Shown here: positions 1-19,819 of the stretch, piece by piece | How the letters are laid out: every line of letters begins with the position of its first letter | How positions within the stretch are numbered: the stretch's first letter is position 1 | From: Candidatus Protoclostridium gallicola | Lineage (GTDB): Bacteria; Bacillota; Clostridia; Christensenellales; Pumilibacteraceae | NCBI GenBank assembly: GCA_904387375.1 | Contig: CAJFLE010000008.1 | Coordinates: 1-64,000 of the forward strand | Direction: 5' to 3' | Length of the DNA stretch: 64,000 bases | Notes under the pieces: generated by a model | The model's database searches: none | Seen by the model: the letters and a program-made list of their open reading frames with translations, nothing else | Told to the model about the DNA's origin: nothing | Made by a program: the position numbers and the translations under genes

Positions 1-447
1 CGCTTCCAGACTGTCGAAGATGGTGGCCGGATTCTCTATGCTGCCGCCCACGCTGCCCGAGCTGCCGTAGGACAGATTTACGCTGTTCTTGCCGAACACA
101 CTGACGCGCGGCCTTGCCGACACCGAAGAATCCGACACCGGCGTGGCAACGGGCAGGGCGTTGTCGTTTTTCAGCAGTATGAAGCCCTCTTCGCAGATGT
201 CTTCGTTGACCGCGTTGCCGTTCGCCAGCGCGCTCGCCTTGTCCGTTATGCCTTCGTCGGCGACGAAGTAGTTGTTGTCGCCCGTGCCGCCCACCTTCTC
301 GCTGCGCTCGCCGCCGAACATCGTGTCCATCAGGCCGGGCAGCACCGTCGTCGCGACAATCGACACCGCGATGAGTATCGCGATAAGCACCACCGTAACG
401 ATGAACCATACGCGGACGGCGACGCTTTTAAGCAATGATTTGATCAT
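1..447 (-). CDS. GH3 glycosidase with N-terminal membrane anchor (partial, 3' end off the left edge)
   Basis: The first 149 codons of a glycoside hydrolase family 3 protein are present; the rest lies outside the window. The complement starts MIKSLLKSVAVRVW, followed by a long hydrophobic segment (about residues 13-36) that looks like an uncleaved anchor. The motifs CEEGFILLKN and VSVFGKNSVNLSYG mark the beginning of the GH3 alpha/beta-sandwich domain. That domain therefore comes first, as in the other GH3 proteins here. ATG at 447 is preceded by AGGAGAAAGG. The gene starts 25 nt after the lipoprotein gene and is probably the third gene of an operon with it and the GH3 at 1858. The anchor, FGGE spacer and FGKNSVN motif match the 986-residue GH3 at 8293. 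Likely role: surface beta-glycosidase; substrate unknown. Confidence 0.85.
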   Translation of the reverse strand, partial: MIKSLLKSVAVRVWFIVTVVLIAILIAVSIVATTVLPGLMDTMFGGERSEKVGGTGDNNYFVADEGITDKASALANGNAVNEDICEEGFILLKNDNALPVATPVSDSSVSARPRVSVFGKNSVNLSYGSSGSVGGSIENPATIFDSLEA

Positions 448-472
448 TTTCCTTTCTCCTTTGCCGCGCCGC

Positions 473-1771
473 TCAGTCCCTCAGGCCGTCGAGATTGGAC
501 TCGAAGCACATGCCTTCCGTCCAGTCGATGTCGGCATTCGTGTAGATGTACATGCAGTCGAACATGGGCGCCGTGGCGTTCATCGTGCCGCCGAGGCTCT
601 TTTCGTTGTCTATCGTTATGACGATTTCGTTGTCGCCCTCCCGAAGAGAAACGTCGTCGTTGATGACGAAATTGCTGAACGGACGGCGGGTGCCGGTGGT
701 GGGATCGGACACGCCGGTGAATTCCAGCGTTTCGTATTCCACTTCGTTCCCGTTCACCGTTATGGGCATTTCGTCGTCGCTGAGCGTGAAGTCGGAGCCT
801 TCGCCGGTAAGGCGCAGGACGATGACACAGCCGTCGACGTCGGAGTCGGAGGTTATGTGGAAGGTGAGCGAGTTGCCGTTGACGTACATGTATCCCACAT
901 AGAATCCGTTGCTTGCGCCGCCGTTCATGTTATCCACGTCGATGAGGCCTATGCCTTCCACGGAGCTGGACCAGCCCACGCCGATCTTGCCCGTCATATC
1001 CACGTACTCGGCTTCGAACGTATGGATCATCAGCCACTTTGCGTACAGCGTCGTATTGCTCTGCACGAACGTATTGAAGTTGTATTCGGTCGTGCACTCC
1101 GCGTCGGCATACCAGCCCATGAACGCGTAATCGTCGCGCGAAGGATCCGCGGGCTTGGTAATGCGTCTGCCTGCGTTGATCGTCTGCGAGTAATAGTCGC
1201 CCGCTTCGTCGTAGTTGTAAGAGAATGTCACGGTGACGGTGTCGCCGGTGGCTTCCTCCCATCCCGCGTACAGCGTCATATTGCCGGTTACGGCGGACGT
1301 GAACACGAATTCGGTCGTGCATGCCGCGTCGGTATACCAGCCGGTGAACACGTAGCCGTCGCGCGTCGGAGCGGTCGGCTGCGTCACCGTGCCGCCGATC
1401 TGTACGGATACGGACGTAGACGTCCCGCCGGAATAGTTCGCGTCGAACGTCACGGATGCGGAAGTCTGCGTCCAGCCCGCGTAATAAGTGACGTCGGAAG
1501 TGATCGCGTACTCGAAGTCCGCCTTGGTCGTGCATGCCGCGTCAGTGAACCAGCCGTCGAACGAATAATTGTCGCGCGTAGGGTTGGCGGGCGGCGTCAC
1601 CACTCCGCCGTCCTCGACGGTGGTCGTGTAGTCGTCGGGCGCGCCCTCGTAGTTGTAATCGAAAGTGACGGTGTACCCGGTCGCAGACGTTTCGGCAGGG
1701 CCGCACGCGGTCAGCAGAAAAAGCGCCGCGGCGACCAGTACGGCCGCAATAAGCATTCTTTTCAATTTCAT
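473..1771 (-). CDS. Lipoprotein with three InlB-type repeats and a C-terminal FEAEY domain
   Basis: This 432-residue secreted lipoprotein has a signal peptide ending in the lipobox LLTAC (about residue 22), so it should be lipid-anchored outside the membrane. Three repeats of the InlB B-repeat/Listeria-Bacteroides type follow (about residues 30-245), each with the pattern 'P.RD.Y.F.GW(Y/F).DA.CT...F'. The C-terminal 180 residues start at FEAEY and look like a beta-sandwich, possibly carbohydrate-binding (CBM6/35-like). The same domain ends the repeat protein at 11271. It lies 86 nt downstream of a GH3 gene and 25 nt upstream of another. A substrate-binding or scaffold role for the flanking GH3 enzymes is inferred, not shown. 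RBS AAAGGAGAAA precedes ATG 1771. Confidence 0.8.
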   Translation of the reverse strand: MKLKRMLIAAVLVAAALFLLTACGPAETSATGYTVTFDYNYEGAPDDYTTTVEDGGVVTPPANPTRDNYSFDGWFTDAACTTKADFEYAITSDVTYYAGWTQTSASVTFDANYSGGTSTSVSVQIGGTVTQPTAPTRDGYVFTGWYTDAACTTEFVFTSAVTGNMTLYAGWEEATGDTVTVTFSYNYDEAGDYYSQTINAGRRITKPADPSRDDYAFMGWYADAECTTEYNFNTFVQSNTTLYAKWLMIHTFEAEYVDMTGKIGVGWSSSVEGIGLIDVDNMNGGASNGFYVGYMYVNGNSLTFHITSDSDVDGCVIVLRLTGEGSDFTLSDDEMPITVNGNEVEYETLEFTGVSDPTTGTRRPFSNFVINDDVSLREGDNEIVITIDNEKSLGGTMNATAPMFDCMYIYTNADIDWTEGMCFESNLDGLRD

Positions 1772-1802
1772 TCGGTTTCTCCTTTATTTCTCGGATAACG
1801 AT

Positions 1803-1830
1803 ACCCAAGGGTGACTTGCGCCACCCTTGG
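1803..1830 (-). other. Intercistronic stem-loop without U-tract
   Basis: CCAAGGGTG pairs with CCACCCTTGG across a 7-nt loop in the gap between the GH3 gene (1858) and the lipoprotein gene (start 1771). No T-run follows in the minus direction, so an RNA stability or processing element is more likely than a terminator. Confidence 0.55.
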
Positions 1831-1857
1831 AATCATCGCTATCGGTTTAAGTACGTT

Positions 1858-4800
1858 TTACTCGGCATCCTTGCCGCGTTTCTTCACGAATGCGAAGACG
1901 GCGAAGCCGATCGCGGCAGCGGCGAGCACGGCGCCGGTTACGCCGATACCCATCAGCGAACCGCAGCCGCCCTCGTCGCCGTTCTCTCCGGCTTTTTCGA
2001 GCGCTTCCACTCTGCTTTCGAGCGCGTCGAGATCGGCAGAGGATGCGGAACCTTCAAGCGCCGCTATATCGGCCTTGATCGCCGCAAGTTCTTCTGCGAG
2101 ATCGGTATCGCCGAGCGCCGCTTCGAGCGCGGCTATGCGCTCTTCGAGCAGCTCAATCTCCGTCTTGCCGCCGGCGGGATCTTCTCCGCCCACGGTGATC
2201 GTGACGGGAACGTTATACTCGGCGGTATTGTTGCCCGACGTAACCGTAACCACGACGGTGAAGCCGAACGTCCCGAGCTCGGTCGGCGTGCCGACTATCT
2301 CGCCCGTCGCGGTATCGAGCGACAGACCTGCCGGAAGCGTGCCTTCGAGCGCGTAAATCTTGGCGTTGTCGACGAATACCGTCGTGTCGACCGCGCCCGT
2401 ATACGACTGACCGTATTCGGCAGCGGCGGCCTCGGCATACGAGAACGCCGGAGTAACCTCTATCGTCAGGTCGGCGGTAGTGCGCACCCACTTGTCGTAC
2501 ACTGCCCTGACGGTGAACGTGAACGTGCCCGCGCTGCCGACGGGAGTGCCGGAAAGCGTGCCGTCCTCGGCGAGGGTCAGCCCCTCGGGCAGGCTGCCGC
2601 CGATCACTTCGTAGTACGCTTCGGTCGCGCCCATATCAACGGCGACGGACTGATTGACCGCCGAACCCTGTGCCACCTTGGTCATGGTCTTATCGGCGAA
2701 CTTTCTGAGGTCGTAGCCGTTCTTGCCCGCCATTATGTTGGCTTCCATGTAGAGTACGCGCTGAGCGCACAGACGTATGTAGTAGTACTGTACGTCGCTC
2801 TGCGCGGGTTTTACTTTTTCAGCCACGGCAGCGGCGTCTATCTGACGGAAGTAGCCGCTCTCTTTAGCAGCCTCGGCAGCCATGTCGGCGTTCGAGTTGC
2901 TGGTCAGCGCGCCTGCGGTGTAGTCCTTGGTGAGCTCGTAGTACGTAAGCACGAGCTTACGGCTCTGATACGTACCCGTCGAGACTATGTCGCCCGCTTT
3001 ATAATTTCTCTCGATGCTGAAATTACGCACGCTGGTGACTTCGACGGAGCCCTGGCCGTTACGCAGGCTGCTGTTCCAGGTTCCGTCGGGCACGAGGGTG
3101 CCGAGGGGCAGGTCGTTACCCGCGCGGAGCAGCATGGTGCTGGGCCAGCAGTTGCTGTTGTACATATCGGTGACGATCGCGCCGTCGAATCCCCACTCAT
3201 CGCGGGTGAGCTCCTGAATGAGCTTATAGTTGACGGCAGCGGCGACCTGACCTATGCGGTTGAACGACGTCATGATACCGGTCGCGTTGCCTTCCTGGAT
3301 AGCCATCTGGAAAGGCTTGCAGTAGGTCTCGCGGAACGCCTGCTCGGTGCAGTACGTATTGATACCCTTTCTGTATATCTCCTGATCGTTGAGCACGAAG
3401 TGCTTGATCCAGCAGTTAAGACCCTTGCTCTGAGCGCCGCCCACGACTGCCGCAGCCATGTAGCCGCTGAGCATACCGTCCTCGCTGTAATACTCGAACG
3501 TTCTGCCGAGGAAGTGCGAACGGTGGATGTTCATCGCGGGTCCGTACCAGCCGGCGAGGTCATTGGCGTTGGTATAGCCGGCGTCCTGCCAGCGGAGCAT
3601 AGCCTGGTTTGCGGTCAGCACGCCCAAACGCTCGATAAGAACGGTGTTCCACGTAGCCGCCTGAAGGGGCGCGACGCACCATGCGAAGCCTCTCGACAGC
3701 GAAATGGGACCGTCGGTTTCACGCGTCTGCTCCTTGTTTATGGAAGGAACGGCCGCGGTGCCGTGGCTGCCGAAGGACACGACGTCGACGAGCTCGTCGA
3801 AGGTGAGCTGGTTCATGAACTCCGTCCACTTTTCGTCGTCGAACTCCACCCCGGTCATATCCGACAGTACGGTTTCGTAATGTCCGTTGGCGTCGAGCAC
3901 GCCCTCGCCCTGCGTCCAGTCTGCGGGAACGGTGACGTCCGCCCACGGCGTGGACAAATAGCCGCCGTCAGTCTGCTTATCGTCTGCGACAGCGTAATAG
4001 TCGCGGAGCACGGCGTCGTTGAACCAGGAATCGTCGCGTTTCAGTTCGTCGACGGTTGCGGCTTCGGGCTGAGTGTAAGTGCCGTTTTTGAAATCCATGC
4101 GGGACACGAGATCCATCTGCAGGTCGTCTTCCTCGAAGCCGCCGTAGTAGTCGAGCAGATTGTACTCGTCCTCGCCGGAGAACAGCGCGTTCGCTTCGGC
4201 GCCGCTGAAGTCGTCGGTGCCGAGGATTATATCGTCGGTGTTTTCGGTGCCGGTGCCGATACTGAACGCGTACGCGTCGTACTGTTCGTGCGAATTCTTC
4301 ATCGCGAACAGGTTGTAATCGCCGGCGTCGAGTTCGTACGTCGCTTCCCCGTTACCGTTGGCGTCGTTATAGTCGAAGGACGCCATATCCTGCACGTTGA
4401 CCTTGACGACAACCGTACCCGTTTCCTGAGGATCGAGAATGTCCGATTTGCCGAAGCCGACGAGCTTGACGTACGATTTTTCGATTTCGTTGTCATAGTA
4501 CGGAGCGTTGACGTATATCTGCACGACGTCCTTGCCCGCGACCTTGCCGGTGTTCGTCACGTTCACCTTGACGTAGAGCGTGTCCGCATCGCCCGTCAGC
4601 GTGCCGCCGATTTCGGTCGTGCAGGTTTCGTCGCTGTACACTCCGGCTATCTCCTGATCGAAGTCGGTGTAGGACAGACCGTAACCGAACGGGTACTGCA
4701 TCTGATCCTCGTACCATGCGTCGCCGGAGCCCTCTTCGTTCTGCTCCATCTCGTACCACATCGTCTCATAGAACATGTATCCGAGATAGACGCTCTCCTC

Positions 4801-5817
4801 GTACTGCACTTCGGTAAAGCCGGAGCCGGGCGTATTGCCCTGAGGCACGGTGCCGTAAACCTCTCCGTCCATGGTGCGGTATACGTTGGGATAAGGATTG
4901 GTTTCCTCGTCGTATATGGGAGTGCCGTCGTTGTTTACCGCCTGCACGCCCGTGCCGTAGTTGTTCCATACGATCGACGAAGTGAAGTCCTTCTCGAAAG
5001 TATCGACGAGCTTGCCCGAAGGATTGATTTCGCCGCTCAGTATCTGTCCGAGCGCCATGATGCCGTTCTGGCCGGGCTGCGAAATCCAGAGCGCGGCGTC
5101 CACGCCGTACTTTTCCTGATCAAGCTCTTTAAGCTCCATGGGGTTGGACGCGTTGAGAACCACGACCACCTTGTCGAAGTTGGCCGCAACGTGTTCCATG
5201 AGCGCCTGCTCGGCGTTCGTGAATTCGAGATAATGCTTGTTCTCTACTCCGTCGATGTGCTCCCCCGCGTCCGCCGCCTCTCCGATGTCGGTGGAAACGT
5301 CGGCGTTCTCGCCTCCCACGCGGGAGAACACGATTACGGCCGCGTCGTTGTACGACTTATACGAATCCGTGATATTCCTGCCGAACTGGTAAATCTCGTC
5401 CTTGGGAGTCGTCGTAGAATCCGCGGCGTACAGGCTCTTGAGCGCGGGGTTGATGCTGAAGCCCGCAGCGTTCAGCGAGTCTTCGAGCGTGGGCGCGGTG
5501 TCCGCCCTCACGCTGCCGGTACCCGTGCCCGCAAGCAGCAGATTGTCCGAGCGCACGCCGAACACGCTTATGTTACGGACGTCGCTCTTGAACGGAAGCA
5601 TATCCCCCTCGTTTTTAAGCAGAACCATGCCTTCGCCTGCTATCTGAACGTTCAGATCCTCGGCCGCGGCGACCACGTCGTCGTGCGAAGTAAAATCGGA
5701 ATAATACTTTCCGTCGTACTTGAGCGCGTCGGCGGCCGCGAACATGACCGTGCAGGTCATTGCGACAGTGAGCAGCAATGTGACCAAAACCATCGTCAGC
5801 TTGGCTGTTCTTGTCAT
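1858..5817 (-). CDS. Large secreted GH3 glycosidase with Ig-like repeats, coiled coil and C-terminal anchor
   Basis: This 1319-residue protein begins with a signal peptide (about residues 1-30). The GH3 alpha/beta-sandwich comes first (GEGMVLLKN near residue 62), then a fibronectin-like stretch (about 400-500), then the catalytic barrel, with the putative nucleophile Asp in GAIVTDMYN near residue 886. This reversed domain order is known from Ruminococcus and Butyrivibrio beta-glucosidases. Two putative-Ig repeats (LPEGLTLAEDGTLSGTP, LPAGLSLDTATGEIVGTP) lie at about 1070-1200. A heptad-rich coiled coil (about 1215-1280), the motif GGCGS, one membrane segment and the tail KKRGKDAE follow. It should be held on the outer face of the membrane. 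It is the first gene of cassette A; RBS AAAGGAGGAAC. The substrate cannot be read from sequence. Confidence 0.9.
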   Translation of the reverse strand: MTRTAKLTMVLVTLLLTVAMTCTVMFAAADALKYDGKYYSDFTSHDDVVAAAEDLNVQIAGEGMVLLKNEGDMLPFKSDVRNISVFGVRSDNLLLAGTGTGSVRADTAPTLEDSLNAAGFSINPALKSLYAADSTTTPKDEIYQFGRNITDSYKSYNDAAVIVFSRVGGENADVSTDIGEAADAGEHIDGVENKHYLEFTNAEQALMEHVAANFDKVVVVLNASNPMELKELDQEKYGVDAALWISQPGQNGIMALGQILSGEINPSGKLVDTFEKDFTSSIVWNNYGTGVQAVNNDGTPIYDEETNPYPNVYRTMDGEVYGTVPQGNTPGSGFTEVQYEESVYLGYMFYETMWYEMEQNEEGSGDAWYEDQMQYPFGYGLSYTDFDQEIAGVYSDETCTTEIGGTLTGDADTLYVKVNVTNTGKVAGKDVVQIYVNAPYYDNEIEKSYVKLVGFGKSDILDPQETGTVVVKVNVQDMASFDYNDANGNGEATYELDAGDYNLFAMKNSHEQYDAYAFSIGTGTENTDDIILGTDDFSGAEANALFSGEDEYNLLDYYGGFEEDDLQMDLVSRMDFKNGTYTQPEAATVDELKRDDSWFNDAVLRDYYAVADDKQTDGGYLSTPWADVTVPADWTQGEGVLDANGHYETVLSDMTGVEFDDEKWTEFMNQLTFDELVDVVSFGSHGTAAVPSINKEQTRETDGPISLSRGFAWCVAPLQAATWNTVLIERLGVLTANQAMLRWQDAGYTNANDLAGWYGPAMNIHRSHFLGRTFEYYSEDGMLSGYMAAAVVGGAQSKGLNCWIKHFVLNDQEIYRKGINTYCTEQAFRETYCKPFQMAIQEGNATGIMTSFNRIGQVAAAVNYKLIQELTRDEWGFDGAIVTDMYNSNCWPSTMLLRAGNDLPLGTLVPDGTWNSSLRNGQGSVEVTSVRNFSIERNYKAGDIVSTGTYQSRKLVLTYYELTKDYTAGALTSNSNADMAAEAAKESGYFRQIDAAAVAEKVKPAQSDVQYYYIRLCAQRVLYMEANIMAGKNGYDLRKFADKTMTKVAQGSAVNQSVAVDMGATEAYYEVIGGSLPEGLTLAEDGTLSGTPVGSAGTFTFTVRAVYDKWVRTTADLTIEVTPAFSYAEAAAAEYGQSYTGAVDTTVFVDNAKIYALEGTLPAGLSLDTATGEIVGTPTELGTFGFTVVVTVTSGNNTAEYNVPVTITVGGEDPAGGKTEIELLEERIAALEAALGDTDLAEELAAIKADIAALEGSASSADLDALESRVEALEKAGENGDEGGCGSLMGIGVTGAVLAAAAIGFAVFAFVKKRGKDAE

Positions 5818-5935
5818 TTTCTCTTGTTCCTCCTTTTATAATGTTTTATAAACACGGACGCTTGCGTCCGACGTTTAACATTATCCCCTCACCGCGGATA
5901 TTCACATATCCGCGCCGTATCGAAGGTTACAAGTC

Positions 5936-5995
5936 ATTATACCCCCCCAGCAACAAATATAGTACTATTTGTTCAATTTATAGTAAAATTGTTCA
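5936..5995 (-). promoter_or_regulatory. Candidate promoter and operator of cassette A
   Basis: On the minus strand a perfect TATAAT (5941-5936) is followed upstream by a run of seven G (5948-5942). At the 17-nt position there is only TACTAT, so the -35 box is poor. A 22-bp inverted repeat, AACAAATA-6 nt-TATTTGTT, covers 5952-5973 and the -35 position. TTGTTCA also occurs as a direct repeat at 5969-5975 and 5989-5995, a 20-bp period. This layout suggests a regulated promoter needing an activator. The leader to ATG 5817 is about 110 nt. Confidence 0.5.
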
Positions 5996-6050
5996 CGATT
6001 TTGCCGCGCCGCGCGCTTTCCCCGCACGGAGTTATGCACAAAAAAAGAAA

Positions 6051-6082
6051 ACCCCCGGAAAGAAAACTCTCTCCGGGGGATT
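6051..6082 (-). terminator. Rho-independent terminator of the GGGtGRT gene
   Basis: In the minus direction CCCCCGGA pairs with TTCCGGGGG, followed by TTTTCTTTTTTT. It lies 37 nt after the stop at 6120. Confidence 0.9.
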
Positions 6083-6119: not shown

Positions 6120-7124
6120 TTATTTTCTCATCGCCTCTTCGACTGCGACCGCGCAGGAGACGGAAGCGCCGACCATGGGGTTGTTGCCCATGCCGATGAG
6201 ACCCATCATCTCGACGTGCGCGGGGACGGAGGACGAACCTGCGAACTGCGCGTCGGAGTGCATTCTGCCCATCGTATCGGTCATGCCGTACGAAGCGGGG
6301 CCTGCGGCCATGTTGTCGGGATGAAGCGTTCTGCCCGTGCCGCCGCCCGAAGCGACCGAGAAGTATTTGACGCCCTTCTCGTTGCACTCTTTCTTATACG
6401 TGCCCGCAACGGGGTGCTGGAAACGCGTGGGGTTGGTGGAGTTGCCGGTGATGGACACGCCGACCTTTTCCAGCCACATGATCTTGACGCCCTCGCGAAC
6501 GTCGTCGGCGCCGTAGCAGCGCACTTTGGCGCGCTCGCCCGTGGAGTATGCGGTTTCCTTGACGATGTCGACCTTGTCGTTGAAGTAGTCCATCTTGGTC
6601 TGGACGTAGGTGAAGCCGTTGATACGCGAGATGATCATTGCGGCGTCCTTGCCGAGACCGTTGAGGATGACGCGGAGCGGCGTCTTGCGCACCTTGTTGG
6701 CGCTCTTGGCGATACCGATCGCGCCTTCTGCTGCGGCGAACGACTCGTGGCCGGCGAGGAAGCAGAAGCACTCGGTTTCCTCTTCGAGCAGCATTGCCGC
6801 GAGGTTGCCGTGGCCGAGACCGACCTTGCGCTGTTCTGCGACGGAGCCGGGGATGCAGAACGCCTGCAGGCCTTCGCCTATCGCGCGTGCGGCGTCTGCG
6901 GCTTTGGTGCAGCCCTTCTTGATGGCGATCGCGCAGCCGAGCGTGTACGCCCACTTCGCGTTCTCGAAACAGATATTCTGTATGCCCTGGGTTATTTCAT
7001 ACGGATTGAATCCCTTGTCCGTGCAGATTTTGAGCGCGTCCTCGAAATCCTTGATACCGTACTTCTTCATCACTTCGGAGGTTTTAGCCTCTCTTCTTTC
7101 GTAACCTTCAAAAGTAACAGCCAT
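6120..7124 (-). CDS. GGGtGRT family protein
   Basis: This 334-residue protein carries the diagnostic motif SVASGGGTGRTLHPDN near residue 270 and matches the GGGtGRT protein family along its full length. The family's biochemical role is not established. It is regularly found next to a NifU-like iron-sulfur scaffold, as here, where the scaffold gene ends 14 nt upstream. The chain is soluble with no signal peptide; several conserved Cys (CFENAKW, CAIAIKKGC, CFCFLAG) could bind a cluster or metal. RBS AAGGAGG lies before ATG 7124, and a strong terminator follows. Cytoplasmic iron-sulfur or redox maintenance is inferred from context only. Confidence 0.9.
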   Translation of the reverse strand: MAVTFEGYERREAKTSEVMKKYGIKDFEDALKICTDKGFNPYEITQGIQNICFENAKWAYTLGCAIAIKKGCTKAADAARAIGEGLQAFCIPGSVAEQRKVGLGHGNLAAMLLEEETECFCFLAGHESFAAAEGAIGIAKSANKVRKTPLRVILNGLGKDAAMIISRINGFTYVQTKMDYFNDKVDIVKETAYSTGERAKVRCYGADDVREGVKIMWLEKVGVSITGNSTNPTRFQHPVAGTYKKECNEKGVKYFSVASGGGTGRTLHPDNMAAGPASYGMTDTMGRMHSDAQFAGSSSVPAHVEMMGLIGMGNNPMVGASVSCAVAVEEAMRK

Positions 7125-7138
7125 GTTTCATAACCTCC

Positions 7139-7840
7139 TTACTGTTTGCGGGGATCGATGAACGAGCAGACCCCCTCTTCCTTCGTGAACCGGCCGTAGT
7201 GTCCGGTAGCGGCTTTGAGCGCTTCGGACGCGCTGACGCCCGCCTTGATCTTGTCGAGCATTACGCCGAGCTTGATATATTCGTAGCCGATGACCTGGTT
7301 GTCCTTGTCGAGAGCCATCTTGGTGATGTAGCCTTCGGTAAGTTCGAGGTAACGGACGCCCTTCTCCTCGGTACCGTAAATCGTACCCGTCATCGAACGC
7401 TCGCCCTTGCCGAGGTCTTCGAGCCCTGCGCCTATGACGAGGCCGTCCTCGGAGAACGCCGACTGCGTCCTGCCGTATACGATCTGCAGGAACAGCTCGC
7501 GCATCGCGGTGTTGATCGCGTCGCAGACGAGGTCGGTGTTGAGCGCTTCGAGTATCGTCTTGCCGGGAAGGATCTCGCCCGCCATAGCCGCGGAGTGAGT
7601 CATGCCGGAGCAGCCGATCGTCTCGACGAGAGCCTCGCGGATGACGCCGTTCTTGACGTTCAGGCTGAGCTTGCACGCACCCTGCTGGGGAGCGCACCAG
7701 CCTACGCCGTGCGTGTAGCCGTTGATGTCCTCGATCTTATAGGCCTGAACCCACTTGCCCTCCTCGGGAATGGGAGCCGGCCCGTGCTTGGGGCCTTTGG
7801 CCACGCAGACCATTCTTTCTACTTCCTTGGAAAACTGCAT
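7139..7840 (-). CDS. Iron-sulfur cluster assembly scaffold (NifU/IscU-like) protein
   Basis: This 233-residue cytoplasmic protein has an IscU/NifU-N-like core containing GWCAPQQGACK, TIGCSGMTHSA and a late GVCSFIDPRKQ cysteine. It is longer than ordinary IscU (about 130 residues) and belongs to the version that travels with GGGtGRT proteins in Clostridia. It probably builds or carries an Fe-S cluster for a dedicated partner rather than serving as the general scaffold. It is the first gene of a two-gene operon; RBS TTGGAGGAA before ATG 7840 and a promoter at 7875-7903. Confidence 0.88.
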   Translation of the reverse strand: MQFSKEVERMVCVAKGPKHGPAPIPEEGKWVQAYKIEDINGYTHGVGWCAPQQGACKLSLNVKNGVIREALVETIGCSGMTHSAAMAGEILPGKTILEALNTDLVCDAINTAMRELFLQIVYGRTQSAFSEDGLVIGAGLEDLGKGERSMTGTIYGTEEKGVRYLELTEGYITKMALDKDNQVIGYEYIKLGVMLDKIKAGVSASEALKAATGHYGRFTKEEGVCSFIDPRKQ

Positions 7841-11270: not shown

Positions 11271-13325
11271 TCAGACCTGCGCATACCCGGGCAGATTGTA
11301 CAGTGACGGACGCCACGACAGCGTCGCTCCGCCTAGATTGCCGAGCTCCATAGCATCGAAAGCAGGTACGTATGCTCCGCTCGTATTCGATATCGTAATG
11401 GTATTCAATCCGGCTTTCAAGTTTACGCTGCCTATATCATACCGCAAAAATTCGATCAGACTGCCGCTCTGATTGGAAATGGACGTACCGCCGTAGCTTA
11501 CGGGCGTACCATTGACTCTTATTTCATATGAGCCTGCGGGCGTAACCACTTCAGAATCCAGATACAACGCCAAAGATGCGCCGGTTACGGTCCGATCGGA
11601 CTCAAATTTAAACTCGAACGTTATTGCGCCGTAAGTATACGGGATGTAATATCCTCCCGCCTTGCTCTCCGATGTTTTTCCGTCTTTACTCATGCTTGCG
11701 ATTACTGACACATTGGAATTTATGAGACCTTCTTCCTGCGCGGAACCGGAATAGCCGGCGCCAGTTTTCCCGCGAAGATCGGTATATTCTGCTTCGAAAC
11801 GGGTTACTCCGCTCACAACAGCATCTTCTATATGAATACTTACGATGGCAGCCTTAGACGTAAATCCTTCCGCGGATGCGACCACGGTTATCTGCACCAT
11901 CTTGGCCGATTTTACGGGCACGCCCGTGATAACACCTTCGGGAGAAAGTGACAGTCCTTCCGGCAGCGCGGTTCGAGCCTCATAAGTTATGGGTACGTCG
12001 CTGTCGCCGTAACCGGACGGGAAAGATGCCGTAGCTATATCTAGCGAACAATCCTCCCCGACATAAAGATCGTTTGCCGGATCCGTATAAAGTGTCATAT
12101 TGTCATATATCAACGTTACAAGTACGCTGAGCGTAAAAGTTCTGGATACGGGTTCGCATCCGGCTGCGGAAGCCGTTACGACAATTTCAAAATTTCCGGT
12201 TCTGATCGTACGTCCAGCGAGAGTGCCGTCGGGATAGAGCGTAATACCGGAAGGCAGATTTCCTTCCGTTATCGAATATGTTACCGTCTGACGGTTGGAA
12301 GCGGTCGCCAGCACGGCACCGTATAAAAAGACGTTAGTTCCGGACTCTATGTTTTCCAGCGTTTCCGTTCTCATTGTTATCTTTCCGTCAGTAATCTCAT
12401 TAGGCAGCGACGGATTGATTTTGAGTTCAAATTCGGCTGTAGCAGCCGCATAACCGGCAGTATATGCCGTCACCGAAAATATCGATGTTCCCACGGTTTC
12501 CGGAATTCCGTACAGCACGCCCGCCGTCGTCATTTCCAGCCCGGCAGGCAGCTTTGAACCGTCTGCGATACGATAATTTATATTGGGCGAAGCGTCGGAG
12601 CCGGTGCCGTTGACGGCACTCGCCACACTACCGGTATAATACTCGCCTGCCGTACCGCGCCTGAGCGAAGCGGCCTCGTAATCAAGCCAGGCGTTTACCA
12701 CGCTTATACGCACATCCGCAGTGGCGCCGGCACAATCTTGAGCCGAAGCCGTCACTCGGATCGTGTATTCTCCATTTTCCGGGACCGTACCGGCAAGGAT
12801 CCCCGTACCGGTCAAAGTCACTCCTTCCGGCAGGGCCGCGCTGTCATCGGCAAGCGAATACGTTACCCCTTCCATATATGAGCCTGACGAGGTTACCGCC
12901 GTAGCGATACTGCGTTCGAACGCGACGCCGTGTGCAACCTTAACGTCGCCGCCGGCATACGAAAGTGCGCCCTCGGCGATGCTTACGGTAAAAGTCGCCG
13001 TTGCGGTACTTCCCTCGGCCGCGGCAACTACGGAAAACGTAAAATCGCCCTTAGCCGTCGGCGTACCCTCTATAAATCCGTCGGCATCCATGGAAAGTCC
13101 TGCCGGCAACATGCTGCCTTCGGCAAGCGCATAAGTCACCGTTTCTGCGCCGGAGGCCGTACCCACGTACGAAATGTATTCCTCCCCTACCCGGCCGGCC
13201 ATCAGATTGCTGCCTGAATAAGAGAGCTGTACGCCGCACCCGAAGAAAAAAAACGGAAATGCAACCGCCAGGCAAATTGCGAATACCGAAATGGGACAGA
13301 TTGTCTTTTTAATTTTCTCTTTCAT
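11271..13325 (-). CDS. Secreted repeat protein (putative lipoprotein) with Ig-like repeats and C-terminal FEAEY domain
   Basis: The 684-residue protein starts with a basic N-terminus and a hydrophobic stretch ending FFFFGCGV; this Cys is probably lipidated, although the lipobox is atypical. About five putative-Ig repeats follow (residues 35-520), recognised by the recurrent 'LP.G(L/I)(S/T)L...G.(I/L).G.P' pattern. From about residue 525 a domain starting FEAEYTDLRGKTGAGYSGS matches the C-terminal domain of the lipoprotein at 473, although the repeats differ in type. It lies between two GH3 genes in the same order as in cassette A. Glycan binding or spacing of the neighbouring enzymes is inferred. 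RBS AGAGGTAAG. Confidence 0.82.
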   Translation of the reverse strand: MKEKIKKTICPISVFAICLAVAFPFFFFGCGVQLSYSGSNLMAGRVGEEYISYVGTASGAETVTYALAEGSMLPAGLSMDADGFIEGTPTAKGDFTFSVVAAAEGSTATATFTVSIAEGALSYAGGDVKVAHGVAFERSIATAVTSSGSYMEGVTYSLADDSAALPEGVTLTGTGILAGTVPENGEYTIRVTASAQDCAGATADVRISVVNAWLDYEAASLRRGTAGEYYTGSVASAVNGTGSDASPNINYRIADGSKLPAGLEMTTAGVLYGIPETVGTSIFSVTAYTAGYAAATAEFELKINPSLPNEITDGKITMRTETLENIESGTNVFLYGAVLATASNRQTVTYSITEGNLPSGITLYPDGTLAGRTIRTGNFEIVVTASAAGCEPVSRTFTLSVLVTLIYDNMTLYTDPANDLYVGEDCSLDIATASFPSGYGDSDVPITYEARTALPEGLSLSPEGVITGVPVKSAKMVQITVVASAEGFTSKAAIVSIHIEDAVVSGVTRFEAEYTDLRGKTGAGYSGSAQEEGLINSNVSVIASMSKDGKTSESKAGGYYIPYTYGAITFEFKFESDRTVTGASLALYLDSEVVTPAGSYEIRVNGTPVSYGGTSISNQSGSLIEFLRYDIGSVNLKAGLNTITISNTSGAYVPAFDAMELGNLGGATLSWRPSLYNLPGYAQV

Positions 13326-13434: not shown

Positions 13435-16400
13435 TTAATTCCTGCGAAGCTTTCTCATGACGATTGCCGCAACGACAAGTCCGGCGAGAGCTATGCCCAC
13501 AAGAACCAGGGTGCCAGCGATGTTGCTTCCGCAGCCGCCTGAACTTCCGTCTGCGCCGGGAGCACCCGTTTCGCCTTTATCACCCTTCTCGCCCTGAGGG
13601 CCGGCAGGGCCCGTAGCCGAAACACCGGTATCGACACCGTTGATGATCCAGTTGCCGTTTTCGCCGATTTCGATCGACGGAGTGACGCCGTCTTCACCGT
13701 CCTCGCCGGCAGGTCCCTGAGGGCCGGCAGGACCGGCAGAACCGCCGAGAGATTCGAGCGCTTCCTCAAGCGCATCGAGCCTGTCTTTGATACCCTCAAC
13801 CGACATGTCGCCGGAAGACTCAGAAATCGCATCGAGTGCAGCTTTAAGGATAGCTATATCGGAAGATACGTCTGCTTCGGGATCCTTCTGTATCTTATCG
13901 ATAATATCAAGTATCATATCCGCGACATCGTATGCGGAAGGTTCAACGACTTTGATCGTGAACTGAGAAATCTTATTGTTTGCGTTTTTGAATATTACCC
14001 ACTTATCCGCATCGGAGGCGCCTTCCGCGGTGACGCATACTTTGACTGTGTATGTACCGCCTTTGACAGACGCGTCGACAGTACCTTCGATCTTGCCGGT
14101 TTGAGGGTTAAGCGAAAGTCCTTCCGGCATGTCGCCGAGCTGCATTCTGTACTGTATGTCGCCGAGATCGCTGTCGGACACATCAAACGACACGGGAATC
14201 CCCTTCATTGCCGTAAACGTAGCACCGTCGACATCATAGGCACTGAGATTGTAACCTCTGTTCTTCGTAGTATCGTCGCTGCTATCAAGGAAATCGAACG
14301 CAAAACCGTTCATCGTAGCATTACTGTTAAGCAGGCAGTATGCCTGACGCTTTACGCAGTCATAAATTGCCTGCAGATGCGAAGGCGTCAGTTCTGCGGG
14401 ACAGAACGGAGTCTTTGTTCCGTCAGCGCCGGCCTTGGGCTGACCGAATACGGTAGCAAAGTCAAGACCGTTCTGCGCGCGAAGATCGAGACCGATATCG
14501 CCGCCTGCGCGTATCATCATGTTGGCGTTCATGCCGCCGTTTTTAGACTGAAATGCGTCCGTCGTGAATTGTCCGATGATACCCCATTCTTCGCGGACGA
14601 GTCCGGTCATAAGATCGTAGCATGCGCCCGCCCATTCGAATCCGAAACGGTTGAAAGAGGTCATGAATGCGGCAGGCGTCGCAACGCCTGCGTCGTTCCG
14701 TATGTCATTAACCGCTTTTGCAGCGCGTTCGAAAGGACGGAGATAAATCTGACGTACGGTCTGCTCGTCTGCCCAGACCGACATGTCGTTATTTTCGCGC
14801 GCGGTTTCCATGTCGTTAAGCGCAAAATGCTTCATGTAGCAGATCAAACCGTGTTCGCCCGCGCCGGTAACTACGGCAGCAGCCATCTTGCCTGACAATG
14901 TCGCGTCTTCGCTGTAATACTCGAAGTTGCGGCCACCGAACTGACTACGATGCATATTCACACCGGGAGCGTACCAACCTGTGGAATGATTCCAAAGCGC
15001 AACCTGACCGGTAAGATCGCCCTGGCGATGCGCCAGTTCCTCGTTCCACGTGCTTGCGACAACGGTTTCAGGTGCGAAATTGCCCTTAATTTCACCGCCG
15101 TTGCTGAGCTCTGCTTTGCCGGGCGCGCCCCATGCGTTGCTTATACCCTGAGGCCCGTCGTGATGTATGCTGGAAACGATACCGAACGCCGTTGCGTTTG
15201 CTTCGGCCACACCGAACTGTGTGAACTTGCCGTTTATGGATGCCGCCGCCTGTTCGACGGTCATCTGCGAAACAAAATCGTCCCATGCGGGATCGTCCAT
15301 TGCTTTGCCGACGAGAGTTTTAAGCTGAATCGGAGCGGAACCGGGAGTGGTGTACGCCTCATCGGAATCACGGAAAGAATAGGTCGCTTTCTTTGCGCCT
15401 TCTTCCGTACCGGCCTCGGTGTAATACCATTTATCTGCGCCGTCGACGCTGTCGTACGTATCCCGGAATGCGGGATTGTTTTCCGTATCCACAGTGCCAT
15501 CTTCGTCGTACTCGAAAGGCATGAGCAGATTTGCAAGCCAGTCGTCGGTCTTGACGGTTTCGGCATCTGCCTTTTTAAGGTACTTAGGCGCGGACGACCA
15601 ATCGTCAGGAACCGCATTCACGGGAGTGACGGTTTTTCCGTCAGACCAATCCGCCGCACTGTAATTCTTGCCGTATATGTATCTGTACTGAGCAGACCAG
15701 AACGGGTCGAGTACGGTGTTATCGGCAGTCACGTCGAACCAGTAAGCCGACTGAGGGAAAGTTCCTGCGAAATCCTCGCGCGACATTACGCCGTCTTTCA
15801 TCTCTTCGTTCATTGTTTCGAAACGGATCCCGACATCTTTACCGGAATGAGGATCTTTATCGAATACTACTTCTGACGCAAGATTATGCGTTTTCTTATT
15901 TGCGTCGGTAGCGGTCGCCCAGCCGTGGGAATCCGTAGTCACATAGAAATAGTAATTCCCTGCATCGAGCTCCCATGTATTTTTATCGTTGTCGTTGGCG
16001 TCGTATACGTCGAACGATGCCATATCGAATGCCTCGAGCGTAAGAGTCACGGTGTCGGTTTCTCCCTTTTCAAGGAGCTTGGTCTTTGCAAAATCGCCGA
16101 GTACGACTTTTGACTTTTCTACTTCTCCCTTCACATAAGGTGCTTCGTAATACAGTTGCACTACGTCTTTGCCCGCGACTTCGCCGGTATTCTTGACGGT
16201 AACGTCCAACGAAACGGTAAAGTTTCCGTATTCGTCAGCAGTTCCGACCTCCAAATCGCCGACTGTCCACTCGAAAGTAGTATAAGACAGACCATAACCG
16301 AACGGATATACGACTTCTTCGTCGTAATCGAAGCCTGCGTAATTGCCTGCGGCGGCTTCCGCAGCCGCTGTTTCGTAATACTGATAGCCGACGTAAATAC

Positions 16401-17658
16401 CTTCTTCGTATTCGACTCCGAAGTATCCGTGTCCGGTGTCGTATCCGTATTCCCCGCCAGTTTCATAGTCGGGAAGAAATCCATCGAACGGAACAAGCAG
16501 ACCGTTCTCGTCCTCGCGGTAATACTGATTGCCGAGATCGGACGTAGTTGTAAGACCATTTCCAATACGGTGTCCCGACTGATTAGCGAATGAAGGAGTC
16601 TTAGTGAAATCGGAAACGAGCGCATCTACCGTTTTTCCGGAAGGGTTGACCTTGCCGGAGATTATTTTTGCAAGCGACTCGAAGCCGTTTTGTCCAGCGC
16701 CGGGAGCCCAGATGATCGAAGAAATCGCTTCGTCTTCAGCAAGAGGCTTAACTTCAAACGCACTGAGGCTGTTGAGCACTATTATTATGTTGCTGAATTC
16801 ACCAGAATCTTTTATGGATTGAATCAATGCTTTTTCGTTATCATCAAGCTCGAGATAGTGTTCGAACGGGTTGCTTTCCCTGCCACTGCCGCCTACAGGC
16901 GTCCACGTGCCGTTACCCTCTATCTCATCCTCGATTGCATCGCGGCCGGGATTGGCGTTCGCGTCAGCGGCAGTCTGTCCCTTGGTCGTCGCGAATGACG
17001 ACATGGGAAGATCGGCGCCCTCGCCGCCTATCCTGGAAATAACGACAACCGCCGCGTTATTGTAATCCGCGTAAGAATTCTTCACTTCGTCGGGATACAT
17101 CGATTGAGGAGTTTCGCCGACGTTCCAGTAAGATGCCTGCGCATTGCTCATCGACGCGCTTGATCTGCCGCTGCCCGACGCATCTTTATCATTATAGAAA
17201 TTCACGAGTTTTGGATTGACTTCGAAGCCCTCGTTTTTCAGACTGTCGATAAGCGTTACGTCTACGCCGCTGCCGCCGGACGAACCGGATCCGGAATATA
17301 CGGGATTGACGGAATTTTTACCGAATACGCTGATCTTGTTGCGCGACGCGGCCAGCGGGAGGCTGGGCACCGTTTCCGTGGTCGGACGCCATCCAGACGT
17401 CGTGTATGTAACATCCTCGTTTTTGAGCAGAACATATCCCTCTTCGGTGATTCTGAGATTATGCTCGTGCACGGCGTCAAGCGCTTCCTGCTCGCTTTCG
17501 AACTCGGTTTCGAAAACGGGACCTGTCCAGCCTGTCTTGGCCGCGGACGCGCCGAAAGAGCCTGCGTTGACGGCAAGGCACATAATAAGCGCCACCGCCA
17601 AACAGACAGCAATGGAAATCATTTTTAACAAACGATTTCCGGAAACTGCTTTTTTCAT
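13435..17658 (-). CDS. Large secreted GH3 glycosidase with coiled coil, collagen-like repeats and C-terminal anchor
   Basis: This 1407-residue protein has a signal peptide ending near GSFGASAA. The GH3 sandwich (EEGYVLLKNED, ISVFGKNSVNPVYSGSGS) again precedes the barrel, with the putative nucleophile Asp in GQFTTDAFQ near residue 1034. One putative-Ig repeat (MPEGLSLNPQTGKIEGT) follows. A predicted coiled coil comes next, then two blocks of Gly-X-Y triplets (about 1306-1326 and 1350-1373) separated by a GENGNWIINGVDTG linker. The protein ends with GGCGS, one membrane segment and RKLRRN. The collagen-like stalk suggests trimeric display at the surface. It is the first GH3 gene of cassette B, downstream of a two-component system; RBS AAGGAGG. 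Confidence 0.9.
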   Translation of the reverse strand: MKKAVSGNRLLKMISIAVCLAVALIMCLAVNAGSFGASAAKTGWTGPVFETEFESEQEALDAVHEHNLRITEEGYVLLKNEDVTYTTSGWRPTTETVPSLPLAASRNKISVFGKNSVNPVYSGSGSSGGSGVDVTLIDSLKNEGFEVNPKLVNFYNDKDASGSGRSSASMSNAQASYWNVGETPQSMYPDEVKNSYADYNNAAVVVISRIGGEGADLPMSSFATTKGQTAADANANPGRDAIEDEIEGNGTWTPVGGSGRESNPFEHYLELDDNEKALIQSIKDSGEFSNIIIVLNSLSAFEVKPLAEDEAISSIIWAPGAGQNGFESLAKIISGKVNPSGKTVDALVSDFTKTPSFANQSGHRIGNGLTTTSDLGNQYYREDENGLLVPFDGFLPDYETGGEYGYDTGHGYFGVEYEEGIYVGYQYYETAAAEAAAGNYAGFDYDEEVVYPFGYGLSYTTFEWTVGDLEVGTADEYGNFTVSLDVTVKNTGEVAGKDVVQLYYEAPYVKGEVEKSKVVLGDFAKTKLLEKGETDTVTLTLEAFDMASFDVYDANDNDKNTWELDAGNYYFYVTTDSHGWATATDANKKTHNLASEVVFDKDPHSGKDVGIRFETMNEEMKDGVMSREDFAGTFPQSAYWFDVTADNTVLDPFWSAQYRYIYGKNYSAADWSDGKTVTPVNAVPDDWSSAPKYLKKADAETVKTDDWLANLLMPFEYDEDGTVDTENNPAFRDTYDSVDGADKWYYTEAGTEEGAKKATYSFRDSDEAYTTPGSAPIQLKTLVGKAMDDPAWDDFVSQMTVEQAAASINGKFTQFGVAEANATAFGIVSSIHHDGPQGISNAWGAPGKAELSNGGEIKGNFAPETVVASTWNEELAHRQGDLTGQVALWNHSTGWYAPGVNMHRSQFGGRNFEYYSEDATLSGKMAAAVVTGAGEHGLICYMKHFALNDMETARENNDMSVWADEQTVRQIYLRPFERAAKAVNDIRNDAGVATPAAFMTSFNRFGFEWAGACYDLMTGLVREEWGIIGQFTTDAFQSKNGGMNANMMIRAGGDIGLDLRAQNGLDFATVFGQPKAGADGTKTPFCPAELTPSHLQAIYDCVKRQAYCLLNSNATMNGFAFDFLDSSDDTTKNRGYNLSAYDVDGATFTAMKGIPVSFDVSDSDLGDIQYRMQLGDMPEGLSLNPQTGKIEGTVDASVKGGTYTVKVCVTAEGASDADKWVIFKNANNKISQFTIKVVEPSAYDVADMILDIIDKIQKDPEADVSSDIAILKAALDAISESSGDMSVEGIKDRLDALEEALESLGGSAGPAGPQGPAGEDGEDGVTPSIEIGENGNWIINGVDTGVSATGPAGPQGEKGDKGETGAPGADGSSGGCGSNIAGTLVLVGIALAGLVVAAIVMRKLRRN

Positions 17659-17673
17659 TGTTCTTCCTCCTTA

Positions 17674-17715
17674 AATAATATTGCCGCCATCGTTTCCGAT
17701 GACGGCAATATTATT
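17674..17715 (-). other. Long stem-loop between histidine kinase and GH3 gene
   Basis: AATAATATTGCCG and CGGCAATATTATT form the base of a nearly perfect 42-nt hairpin that ends directly before the AAGGAGG site of the GH3 gene. No clear U-tract follows, so it may be a weak terminator or an RNA processing or stability element. Confidence 0.6.
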
Positions 17716-17779
17716 GCATGTGGAGTATTCTTTATCAACGGTTTTGCCGAAAACTGCTTTCAAACTGACGAAATCGGCA

Positions 17780-19087
17780 TCAGTTTCCGGCGATTGCGGC
17801 AGCAGAACTCAACGGAAAAAACATATTGAGCATGAAAAGGTCTTCCTTGACTGTAACCGACATGCGCCCACCGTACTTCTCGACGATCATACGCATACTG
17901 CGCACTCCGAAACCATGCCCATCGTTTTCGCTCATTGGCAGTCCGTCGCGCATCATGATGCTGCCGTCGAAATAATTCGTTATGCATATGTTCATGAATC
18001 CGCCTTTGACAATAGACGTTATACTGATGACTTTCTTTTCTTCTTCCAGTCCCGATACCGCAGTGACGGCATTTTCCACTGCGTTACCGAACAAAGCGTA
18101 AAGCTCATGGTCCGGAATAAACGACAGATATGTACCGTCCAGCAGACAGGTAAATCTGATTTTGTTATTCAGACAGTAAAGAATATGTTTTGCCATTGCA
18201 ACGTCGATGGCATCGTTCCCGGTTTTGATCTGAGAGCTGTATATATCGACCGTATCACCGAGTTCGCGCAGCGCATCCGCGCTGATTTTACCTTCCATGG
18301 CGCGAAGCTGATGCCTGATATCATGGCATTTCAGATTTATCATATCAATATTCGTCTTTTCTTGAAGGTATTTCTCTCGCTCCTCCGACAACATTTGCTG
18401 TAACATTTTGAAATCATCGGCCATATGTTTATTAGATAATATATTGATTTCTACGATTATGGCCATAAAAGCACAAATCGACGACAGCAGATATTCGAAC
18501 ACCATCAGTTCGCCTGCTCCTATAATAAAAAACTGCATTTCTATAAATACGGTAGAAAGCAGCATGACTGCTGTTATAATGAGCTGCACCGGACTTTCGA
18601 TCCTTATATTGACATAAGCAGATTTTTGCCGCCTTATTGAAAAATACCAAATCGCGAAACATGCGACGGCGCACACCGTCAGATTAGAAACAAATCTCAG
18701 AACATACGGAACGTCACTGAAAATAGACATAAACGCCTGCGTCATTCTCTGTGATATATGCTGCACACTGTATCCTATCGTTGCGCAGAAAGAAGCCGCC
18801 ATAATCCCGCAATCGAAGCATAAGATCATACAGCCGGCGCAGGCAGCATACTGGATGACGAATTTTCCGCCGCCCGCAAGCATCATATAGTCGCGTCCGA
18901 GAAAAGTTTCGAGAGAGTTGAGTCCGAAAGAAAGAGCCAGCAATGCTATAATGCAGCATACAACCCTCGGTATAAAGTACGGACGTTTCGGCATACGCCA
19001 GCCGACGAATGCCGTTACGAAGGCGAACAGCACGATAAAACTGTAATCTCGCCATAATGCGCATAATAAAGACGGAAAACCATCCAT
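17780..19087 (-). CDS. AgrC-like sensor histidine kinase (GHKL)
   Basis: A sensor kinase of about 435 residues. Some six hydrophobic segments fill the first 200 residues. A coiled linker (REKYLQEKTNIDMINLKCHD) leads to the phospho-acceptor His of HDIRHQLRAM and to a GHKL ATPase with N-box NAVENAVTAV and G-box GHGFGVRSM. This is the layout of AgrC/VirS-type kinases, which often sense peptides or cell-surface signals. I chose ATG at 19087 because it has a G-rich ribosome site; a TTG directly before it (19090) is also possible. The partner response regulator ends 6 nt upstream. The kinase precedes the GH3 cassette, so it may control it; this is inferred from position. Confidence 0.9.
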   Translation of the reverse strand: MDGFPSLLCALWRDYSFIVLFAFVTAFVGWRMPKRPYFIPRVVCCIIALLALSFGLNSLETFLGRDYMMLAGGGKFVIQYAACAGCMILCFDCGIMAASFCATIGYSVQHISQRMTQAFMSIFSDVPYVLRFVSNLTVCAVACFAIWYFSIRRQKSAYVNIRIESPVQLIITAVMLLSTVFIEMQFFIIGAGELMVFEYLLSSICAFMAIIVEINILSNKHMADDFKMLQQMLSEEREKYLQEKTNIDMINLKCHDIRHQLRAMEGKISADALRELGDTVDIYSSQIKTGNDAIDVAMAKHILYCLNNKIRFTCLLDGTYLSFIPDHELYALFGNAVENAVTAVSGLEEEKKVISITSIVKGGFMNICITNYFDGSIMMRDGLPMSENDGHGFGVRSMRMIVEKYGGRMSVTVKEDLFMLNMFFPLSSAAAIAGN

Positions 19088-19093
19088 CAATAA

Positions 19094-19819
19094 TCACCCC
19101 CCCCCGCATGGCGTCAGGCCGGTCAGCACTTCGCTCAGCCGCGTTACAAACTCCTTTTTCATTCCGCGGCTTATTTTCAGCCATGTGCCGGCGACAAGTA
19201 CCTCGTCGCCCTTTATCTCCCGGCACCAGCGCAGATTGACGAGATAACTCGAGCTGCAACGGCAGAATCCGCTGCCGGCAAGCTCGTTTTCCAGCTGTTT
19301 CAGACCGCTGCCCCGCGTTTCGTAATCTCCGGACGCGCAGTGATACGTCAGGCGTTTGTCCATTATTTCTATGTAATATACGTCCTGCGCGGGCATGACC
19401 TTGTCGCCCTCGCCGGGAATATGTATTACAACGGGAGAAGGCCGCGACTCGTTTATGAGCCGCAGTTTGTCCATACGCAGTTTGAGATCGTAATATTTTA
19501 CGGGTTTTAAGAAGTAATCGAGCGCGCCTACTTTATAACCGCGCAGCGCGTACTGCGCCATGTCGGTAACGAAGATTATGGGCACTTCCTCATCCAGCCT
19601 GCGCAACTGTTCTGCGGCGTCCATGCCGTTCATATACGGCAGGCATATATCCATAAACACGACGTCATACACCGGCTTGTAGCTTTGCAAAAATATTTCC
19701 GCCCTGTCGAACACATCGGTCATAATCGCCATGCCCGTCTCTGCCGCGTAACGGTCGAGAAATTTTTTCAGACTGATCCTGTCGGACGCGGAGTCCTCCA
19801 CTATCGCCGCTTTCAGCAT
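19094..19819 (-). CDS. LytTR-family response regulator
   Basis: About 241 residues: an N-terminal receiver domain (acidic IVEDS, phospho-acceptor Asp in VVFMDICLPYMNG, conserved Lys in FLKPV) and a C-terminal LytTR DNA-binding domain (DVYYIEIMDKRLTYH, FCRCSSSYLVNL). I prefer the ATG at 19819 because AGAGGGG lies 6 nt before it; ATG 19825 overlaps that site. The gene ends in a G9 homopolymer just before TGA and is followed by the kinase gene. Such regulators bind 9-bp direct repeats with about a 21-bp period. Confidence 0.92.
   Translation of the reverse strand: MLKAAIVEDSASDRISLKKFLDRYAAETGMAIMTDVFDRAEIFLQSYKPVYDVVFMDICLPYMNGMDAAEQLRRLDEEVPIIFVTDMAQYALRGYKVGALDYFLKPVKYYDLKLRMDKLRLINESRPSPVVIHIPGEGDKVMPAQDVYYIEIMDKRLTYHCASGDYETRGSGLKQLENELAGSGFCRCSSSYLVNLRWCREIKGDEVLVAGTWLKISRGMKKEFVTRLSEVLTGLTPCGGG

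Follow-up and report, generated by a model that had tools for sequence, protein, structure and literature searches.

Nine copies of a three-gene cassette of permuted GH3 proteins and a predicted lipoprotein, six of them near LytTR regulators, in Candidatus Protoclostridium gallicola

Contig C8 of Candidatus Protoclostridium gallicola (CAJFLE010000008.1; assembly GCA_904387375.1, 1.80 Mb in 28 contigs) carries, in its first 64 kb (positions 1 to 64,000), two gene clusters with the order long GH3 gene, gene for a protein ending in a domain called FEAEY, short GH3 gene. We refer to this whole 64-kb stretch as the window, to the clusters as cassettes A and B, and to their glycoside hydrolase family 3 (GH3) proteins as Longs and Shorts. 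An earlier model-generated reading of the window (the original prediction) had proposed that the clusters form a duplicated, diversified three-part machine for surface glycans. Both were recovered with the same gene order, entirely on the minus strand, but the count of two holds for the window only, as the whole genome contains nine such cassettes, each on one strand. Here we describe their recurrence, their circularly permuted enzymes and their association with GHKL sensor kinases and LytTR response regulators, and we propose, with moderate confidence, that each cassette is a membrane-tethered, LytTR-controlled unit that trims glycans at the cell surface.

In cassette A the Long (13435..17658, minus strand) comprises GH3_C, Fn3-like, GH3_N and He_PIG domains, a weakly collagen-like stretch, and a GGCG motif with a C-terminal anchor. 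It is followed by the middle protein (11271..13325, minus strand), a predicted lipoprotein with five He_PIG (Ig-like) Pfam repeats and its FEAEY domain at 11343-11798, and by the Short (8293..11253, minus strand), a permuted GH3 with N- and C-terminal membrane helices (Pfam, hydropathy). The Long of cassette B (1858..5817, minus strand) has the same Pfam order of GH3_C, Fn3-like, GH3_N and He_PIG, again with GGCG and a C-terminal hydrophobic anchor. Its middle protein (473..1771, minus strand) is a predicted lipoprotein (lipobox LTAC) with List_Bact (InlB-type) repeats and a C-terminal FEAEY domain at 527-1018. The two middle proteins thus share a terminal domain and differ in their repeats (PF09479 versus He_PIG), as had been foreseen. 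The Short of cassette B is present only as an N-terminal piece (1..447, minus strand) because the window begins at a contig end; the product of this piece alone has no Pfam match above the cut-off and was identified with the genome's own GH3 model (108 bits). Over 345 bp, window positions 1-345 share 95% identity with the end of contig C6 (L039 1-345), and the last 99 bp do not differ at all. That two contigs end inside near-identical Short copies suggests that a duplication or gene conversion took place recently. Contigs C25 (L057) and C26 (L058) also begin inside GH3 sequence, and the two pieces agree in all of their first 25 amino acids.

The nine cassettes were found by reading 30 stretches around GH3_C matches. 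Two of the nine have a Short truncated where the contig stops, and the Short of L044 belongs to another GH3 type. The genome holds 46 GH3_C matches, including pieces at contig ends or in split frames, and the GH3 frames of the 30 stretches and the window add up to 146 kb, or 8.1% of the genome. Besides the cassettes there are single GH3s with a kinase/regulator pair, as well as FEAEY-GH3 pairs and variants (L034, L035, L036, L048, L059). One variant, in which a GH3 bearing its own FEAEY domain lies beside further FEAEY proteins, is conserved (L036 2755-15867, L079, L080). At L057 (4226-6721) a GH78-like rhamnosidase directly precedes a GH3, a hint that this unit may act on rhamnose-bearing glycosides.

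The triplet is also kept outside the window, in other genera and in Bacilli. The loci searched yielded 44 automatic triplets, which were reduced to 41 distinct cassettes by dropping L087 and L090, which duplicate L075 and L076, and L108, whose frames overlap; the loci were picked as best matches, and counts among them are not prevalences. Within the family, cassettes occur in members of four genus groups (L061-L078). A Short-based scan located them in 18 named-record loci, among them Clostridia, Bacilli and one bin labelled Acholeplasmataceae, at least one of which (L092) may repeat a locus already searched among the relatives (G013:C8). Kinase/LytTR pairs lie within 4 kb of a GH3 in 47 of 80 scanned loci. 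Pairs sharing a locus with a permuted-type GH3 (L139, L140, L116, L150) were seen in Bifidobacterium, Streptococcus, Mediterraneibacter and Pseudobutyrivibrio among the named genomes. Across 74 genomes of the same family the number of GH3_C matches varies from none to dozens, and within the genus from 2 to at least 37; the family-search counts are lower bounds for G000 (37 versus 46 in the genome's own search), G038 and G047. Over these 74 genomes, with their kinship uncorrected, the counts of GH3_C, HATPase_c_5 kinase and FEAEY domains covary (Pearson 0.96 for GH3-kinase, 0.91 for GH3-FEAEY and 0.94 for kinase-FEAEY; Spearman 0.70, 0.84 and 0.76, respectively). FEAEY domains were found in 25 of the 74, of which 24 are among the 25 genomes with seven or more GH3_C matches and one among the other 49.

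All three full-length GH3s of the window have the Pfam order GH3_C, Fn3-like, GH3_N, which makes them circularly permuted enzymes of the GlyA1 type; the same order is found in 36 of 37 own-genome GH3 frames of at least 900 aa, the exception being L060. Permuted GH3s are a described subfamily, with GlyA1 from the rumen as the type enzyme (PMC5104943). A structure model of a Short had, among the matches listed, near full-length matches only to 5k6 entries (5k6l is GlyA1) and to 5wvp/5wug; this AlphaFold model is weak (predicted local distance difference test score 65.7) and was used for domain order only. Counterparts of the GlyA1 residues were assigned by motif and position, the only alignment displayed being that with Thermotoga. 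In the Shorts the acid/base glutamate, the nucleophile aspartate, the Lys-His pair, and the checked Arg and Asp positions are each present in 33/33, which points to catalysis. The acid/base glutamate is found in 33 of 38 Longs and the nucleophile in 37 of 38, with corresponding values of 20/21 and 21/21 for the other GH3s. The five members of one Long clade (L054 2075-5554, L085, L088, L092, L119) have lost the acid/base glutamate and kept the nucleophile. By family membership, the GH3s described here are likely exo-glycosidases.

The enzymes group by their position in the cassette. A tree of 90 GH3s included 38 Longs (minimum length 1000 aa) and 33 Shorts (minimum length 850 aa). In it every Long lies on the same side of a single branch, whose support of 66 is weak, where shuffled labels need an average of 29 changes; 31 of the 33 Shorts form one clade with a support of 100. 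The two outlying Shorts, L044 and L068, are placed among single GH3s. The tree of the genome's own GH3s, built with the same length limits, concurs, except that the Long of L054 stands apart from the other eight Longs. The unpermuted L060 was excluded from both trees and the L036 pair from the larger one. Position-matched GH3s are therefore each other's relatives, as the original prediction required of a duplicated unit. Pairwise distances of Long, Short and FEAEY domain are also correlated over the 31 cassettes in which both GH3s are long enough, leaving out L044 and L068 with their Shorts of another type (Mantel r 0.68, 0.53 and 0.47, with 0/5000 permutations each); between species, this correlation in part reflects genome relatedness. 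Within the genome, the six cassettes with complete genes gave r values of 0.66-0.74 (36 to 85 of 5000 permutations). The nearest neighbours of Long and Short coincide in 17 of the 31 cassettes. On our reading of the trees and distances, the cassette would mostly have moved and duplicated as one unit.

A structure model predicts a CBM35-like beta-sandwich fold for the FEAEY domain. Pfam matches at E-values up to 0.01 are sparse, with CBM_6 in 1 and PF14683 in 3 of 19 members and none strong, and using the FEAEY region of 473-1771 as a protein query returned 18 matches, all close relatives, that were of no further use. The middle proteins had been described as secreted proteins with a shared terminal domain. 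The shared domain stands, while a lipobox in the middle proteins of 38 of 41 cassettes identifies them as predicted lipoproteins. Together, the modelled fold and the lipobox suggest a carbohydrate-binding-like lipoprotein that may hold glycans. At L034 (10162-12951) a non-FEAEY protein located between the FEAEY protein and the GH3 carries a CBM_4_9 domain, which adds a carbohydrate-binding module of a different family to these units.

Hydropathy analysis predicts different anchoring for the two enzymes. A C-terminal hydrophobic anchor, which had been attributed to the Longs, is present in both Longs of the window but in only 26 of 41 overall. The Shorts were said to be held by an N-terminal membrane segment; this helix is found in 33/33, but not alone, as 32/33 also have a C-terminal membrane helix, followed by a basic tail that is predicted to be cytosolic. 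The C-terminal helix is likewise seen in most of the single GH3 tails displayed. The sequence motifs FGGE and FGKNSVN, given as common to the gene products ending at 447 and 11253, occur in both, but FGKNSVN is not limited to Shorts and is also found in the Long at 13435-17658. In 19 of 41 Longs (e.g. 1858-5817 and 13435-17658) the C-terminus has a Gly-Cys type motif, a hydrophobic stretch and a basic tail, which together may form a sorting signal with a Cys. By eye, 51518-52516 was read as encoding a CPBP-like membrane protease. The two enzymes and the lipoprotein of each copy are predicted to reside at the cell surface.

As originally noted, a kinase/LytTR pair lies upstream of one window cassette, cassette A: a GHKL (HATPase_c_5, PF14501) sensor kinase (17780..19090, minus strand) with seven predicted membrane helices and a longest loop of 34 residues, and a LytTR response regulator (19094..19825, minus strand; PF00072 and PF04397). 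Across the genome a kinase is found within 3.5 kb of six of the nine cassettes, each time accompanied by a LytTR regulator. For 21 of the 23 HATPase_c_5 kinases a GH3 is at most 7 kb away, a distance that covers 25% of the genome (p = 3.6e-11), and inspection assigned 21 of 22 LytTR genes to GH3-adjacent kinase/regulator pairs. By hydropathy, 20 of 21 own kinase frames have five to eight helices and no loop longer than 75 residues, which leaves no room for a large outer domain. At L032 (7116-11732) a sensor kinase and a GH3 share a single open frame of 1538 aa. We do not claim a true fusion at this locus, as the likely start and ribosome site of the GH3 remain when examined by eye and the joint may be a simple loss of the stop.

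LytTR proteins bind direct repeats spaced approximately 21 bp apart. We counted such repeats, as 10-mers with up to two mismatches, in this genome and its relatives and compared them with 200 dinucleotide shuffles. Of the 41 gaps that separate a kinase/regulator pair from the GH3 or FEAEY gene following it, 13 had repeats at 21 bp versus 1.5 in shuffled sequence, and 20 had repeats at 20-22 bp versus 4.7, with a maximum of 11 in any shuffle; a spacing of 18 bp was found in 6 of the 41, a figure that has no shuffle value. GH3 units with no pair just upstream gave 40 versus 21.5 at 20-22 bp (maximum 33) and 21 of 94 at 21 bp (7.1 expected). This second set is noisy, with counts of 17, 15 and 16 at 15, 27 and 30 bp for which there are no shuffle values. 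In 72 control gaps between cassette genes, repeats at 20-22 bp numbered 11 versus 6.8 expected, indistinguishable from shuffles that reached 14. Repeats about 21 bp apart are thus enriched upstream of the units, as LytTR control would need. A comparison of repeat words between the regulator and cassette promoters of the same locus was null in one form and weak in another.

The predicted LytTR operator of cassette A (17706..17779, minus strand) consists of repeats at 17770-17779 and 17749-17758, which are 21 bp apart with 2/10 mismatches in the best register, upstream of a possible -10 element near 17706-17716. A further direct repeat with 21-bp spacing (19914..19944, minus strand; coordinates derived from its 119 bp offset to the regulator gene start) lies upstream of the regulator gene and is a possible autoregulatory site. 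Cassette B has a predicted operator and promoter (5936..5995, minus strand) with a TGAACAA direct repeat (5976-5995, 5957-5975), 20 bp apart, and TATAAT at 5936-5941. Neither cassette B nor the C6 cassette L040 has an adjoining pair, and both carry the same composite of TGAACAA repeat, G run and TATAAT, in that order. Genome-wide, TGAACAAN12-15TGAACA matches three times and its reversed control not at all; the third match, with a GH3 2.2 kb away, is without the remainder of the composite. A composite promoter common to two cassettes with no pair of their own suggests that one shared regulator may act on both at a distance.

We infer the following mechanism for these units. A glycan held at the membrane by the CBM35-like lipoprotein would lose its end sugars to the Short and, in most cassettes, the Long, acting as differently anchored permuted GH3 exo-glycosidases. 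The freed monosaccharides would enter the cell via a few shared carriers. The kinase would report the presence of substrate, either directly or through the tethered proteins, and the LytTR regulator would switch the unit on, probably at the direct repeats about 21 bp apart, the switching pair being close by for six of the nine. What would distinguish the copies is the linkage or glycan attacked, not the sugar imported.

The same components could serve chiefly as the receptor side of the kinase, with the GH3s and the CBM35-like lipoprotein binding, and perhaps cutting, a glycan and signalling through their membrane helices. Since the kinases have no large outer domain, the tethered proteins could bind the glycan and pass on the signal. 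The two membrane helices and basic cytosolic tail of the Shorts, the proximity of nearly all kinases to a GH3, and the Long clade that lacks the acid/base glutamate would all suit such a role, as would the joined frame at L032 were it more than a lost stop. The full retention of the checked catalytic positions by the Shorts argues against it, and we regard a mainly receptor function as unlikely.

A second explanation is that the cassettes belong to ordinary Gram-positive polysaccharide utilisation loci (gpPULs) whose transporter is located elsewhere. As defined in PMC5320581, a gpPUL requires a transport system in the locus, and one listed example, Ros-7, includes an RR[LytTR] with a histidine kinase. 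The cassettes resemble gpPULs in that predicted surface enzyme, binding-like protein and regulator are clustered (PMC5320581), a regulator being close to six of the nine. In place of mixed enzymes they have a pair of GH3s with a binding-like lipoprotein, and they lack a transporter of the families searched: within 10 kb of any of the nine cassettes there is no BPD_transp_1, MFS_2, PTS_EIIC or MFS_1 match, the search being confined to these four families. The genome totals are 6 BPD_transp_1, 2 MFS_2 and 0 PTS_EIIC, with MFS_1 matches in three places. The nearest transporter is a permease pair approximately 12 kb from the cassette at 159-167 kb of C8, which might lie within the published 11-gene reach. 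With only a single GH43 match and few transporters beside 46 GH3_C matches, GH3 has expanded where one other hydrolase family and the four transporter families have not. We consider an ordinary gpPUL improbable.

Variation in copy number within the genus, the near-identical pair of Shorts at two contig ends, and the collagen-like and internalin-like repeat matches, all under cut-offs or at the level of repeats only, would fit surface proteins that have diversified to alter the glycans of the cell or its neighbours, in host contact or in phage or immune avoidance, and not for feeding. The intact catalytic residues of the Shorts and the carbohydrate-module-like fold of the middle proteins speak against this, and it appears quite improbable. 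That the window holds two unrelated clusters that merely look alike by local accident, as the unrelated repeat domains of their middle proteins might imply, is refuted by the nine own copies, the 41 distinct cassettes, the grouping by position and the correlated distances.

The original prediction could not match the clusters to a described system. This stands for the triplet, whereas two of its elements have been published, the permuted GH3s (PMC5104943) and GH3s adjacent to LytTR genes (PMC2914790). The cassette enzymes share with GlyA1 the order GH3_C, Fn3-like, GH3_N and the conserved catalytic Glu and Asp (PMC5104943). They differ in falling into two position-specific types and in their anchoring, with Shorts helical at both ends and many Longs anchored at the C-terminus, while the available part of PMC5104943 describes neither membrane anchoring nor a cassette. 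In Butyrivibrio proteoclasticus B316 (4.4 Mb), a one-sentence remark in PMC2914790 places 3/3 LytTR regulators beside a secreted GH3 with a C-terminal membrane helix. Here, too, LytTR genes lie near C-terminal-helix GH3s (21/22 in this genome). The difference from the three B316 loci is one of scale and content, with seven times as many in 1.8 Mb and the addition of the three-gene cassette and its CBM35-like lipoprotein. Our literature searches turned up no account of the triplet, its multiplication, the CBM35-like lipoprotein or the promoter repeats, and the excerpt of PMC5945754 contains nothing on LytTR/GH3 units.

Bacteroidetes Sus-type loci combine a surface binding lipoprotein, surface enzymes and often a dedicated sensor per locus, in many copies per genome. 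By analogy, the cassettes resemble them in their predicted surface binding-like lipoprotein and surface enzymes, a sensor nearby and multiple copies. They differ in having three genes and, by Pfam scan of the window genes, no SusC or SusD; no genome-wide search for these was made. The SusC/SusD pair is the minimum definition of a Sus-type locus in PMC5320581. We tentatively suggest, as a doubtful extension of our proposal, that the cassettes might be a monoderm counterpart of a Sus array, with about 8% of bases devoted to outward permuted GH3s in many LytTR-wired units, the GH3 and CBM35-like proteins both trimming glycans and sensing for the kinases, and only monosaccharides imported via a few carriers. 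If only free monosaccharides enter through a few shared carriers, specificity would be set by which linkage is cut outside the cell, not by transport.

Elsewhere in the window, 6120-7840, between the two cassettes, encodes a GGGtGRT protein (PF14057) paired with a NifU_N-like protein just below the cut-off. The end of the window (54798-64000) contains a GH2 that matches the beta-glucuronidase LacZ4 model below the cut-off, an MFS_2 carrier, and a sugar-acid catabolism cluster in which a kinase, an aldolase, an isomerase and a dehydratase were read from the translations; we read this region as a putative separate locus for uronide use. A dispersed repeat of approximately 150-300 bp with 80-95% identity occurs outside GH3 genes at window 56984-57277, L038 127-401 and 1705-2022, L056, L055, L035 and L049.

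Permuted GH3s and the adjacency of LytTR and GH3 genes were already known; the triplet, its multiplication, the CBM35-like lipoprotein and the repeats are apparently new. What seemed a curiosity of two clusters is a recurring genetic unit: paralogous, predicted surface glycosidases whose roles seem to depend on position, together with a binding-like lipoprotein and, nearby, a regulator for which the promoters offer candidate sites. The Long clade that lacks the acid/base residue would be a natural case of an enzyme turned binder, or of altered chemistry. If the proposed mechanism is true, the many kinase/glycosidase pairs would be a setting in which to ask what GHKL kinases sense, and the unit would show how Clostridia and Bacilli that are poor in transporters could compete for glycans while importing no oligosaccharides.

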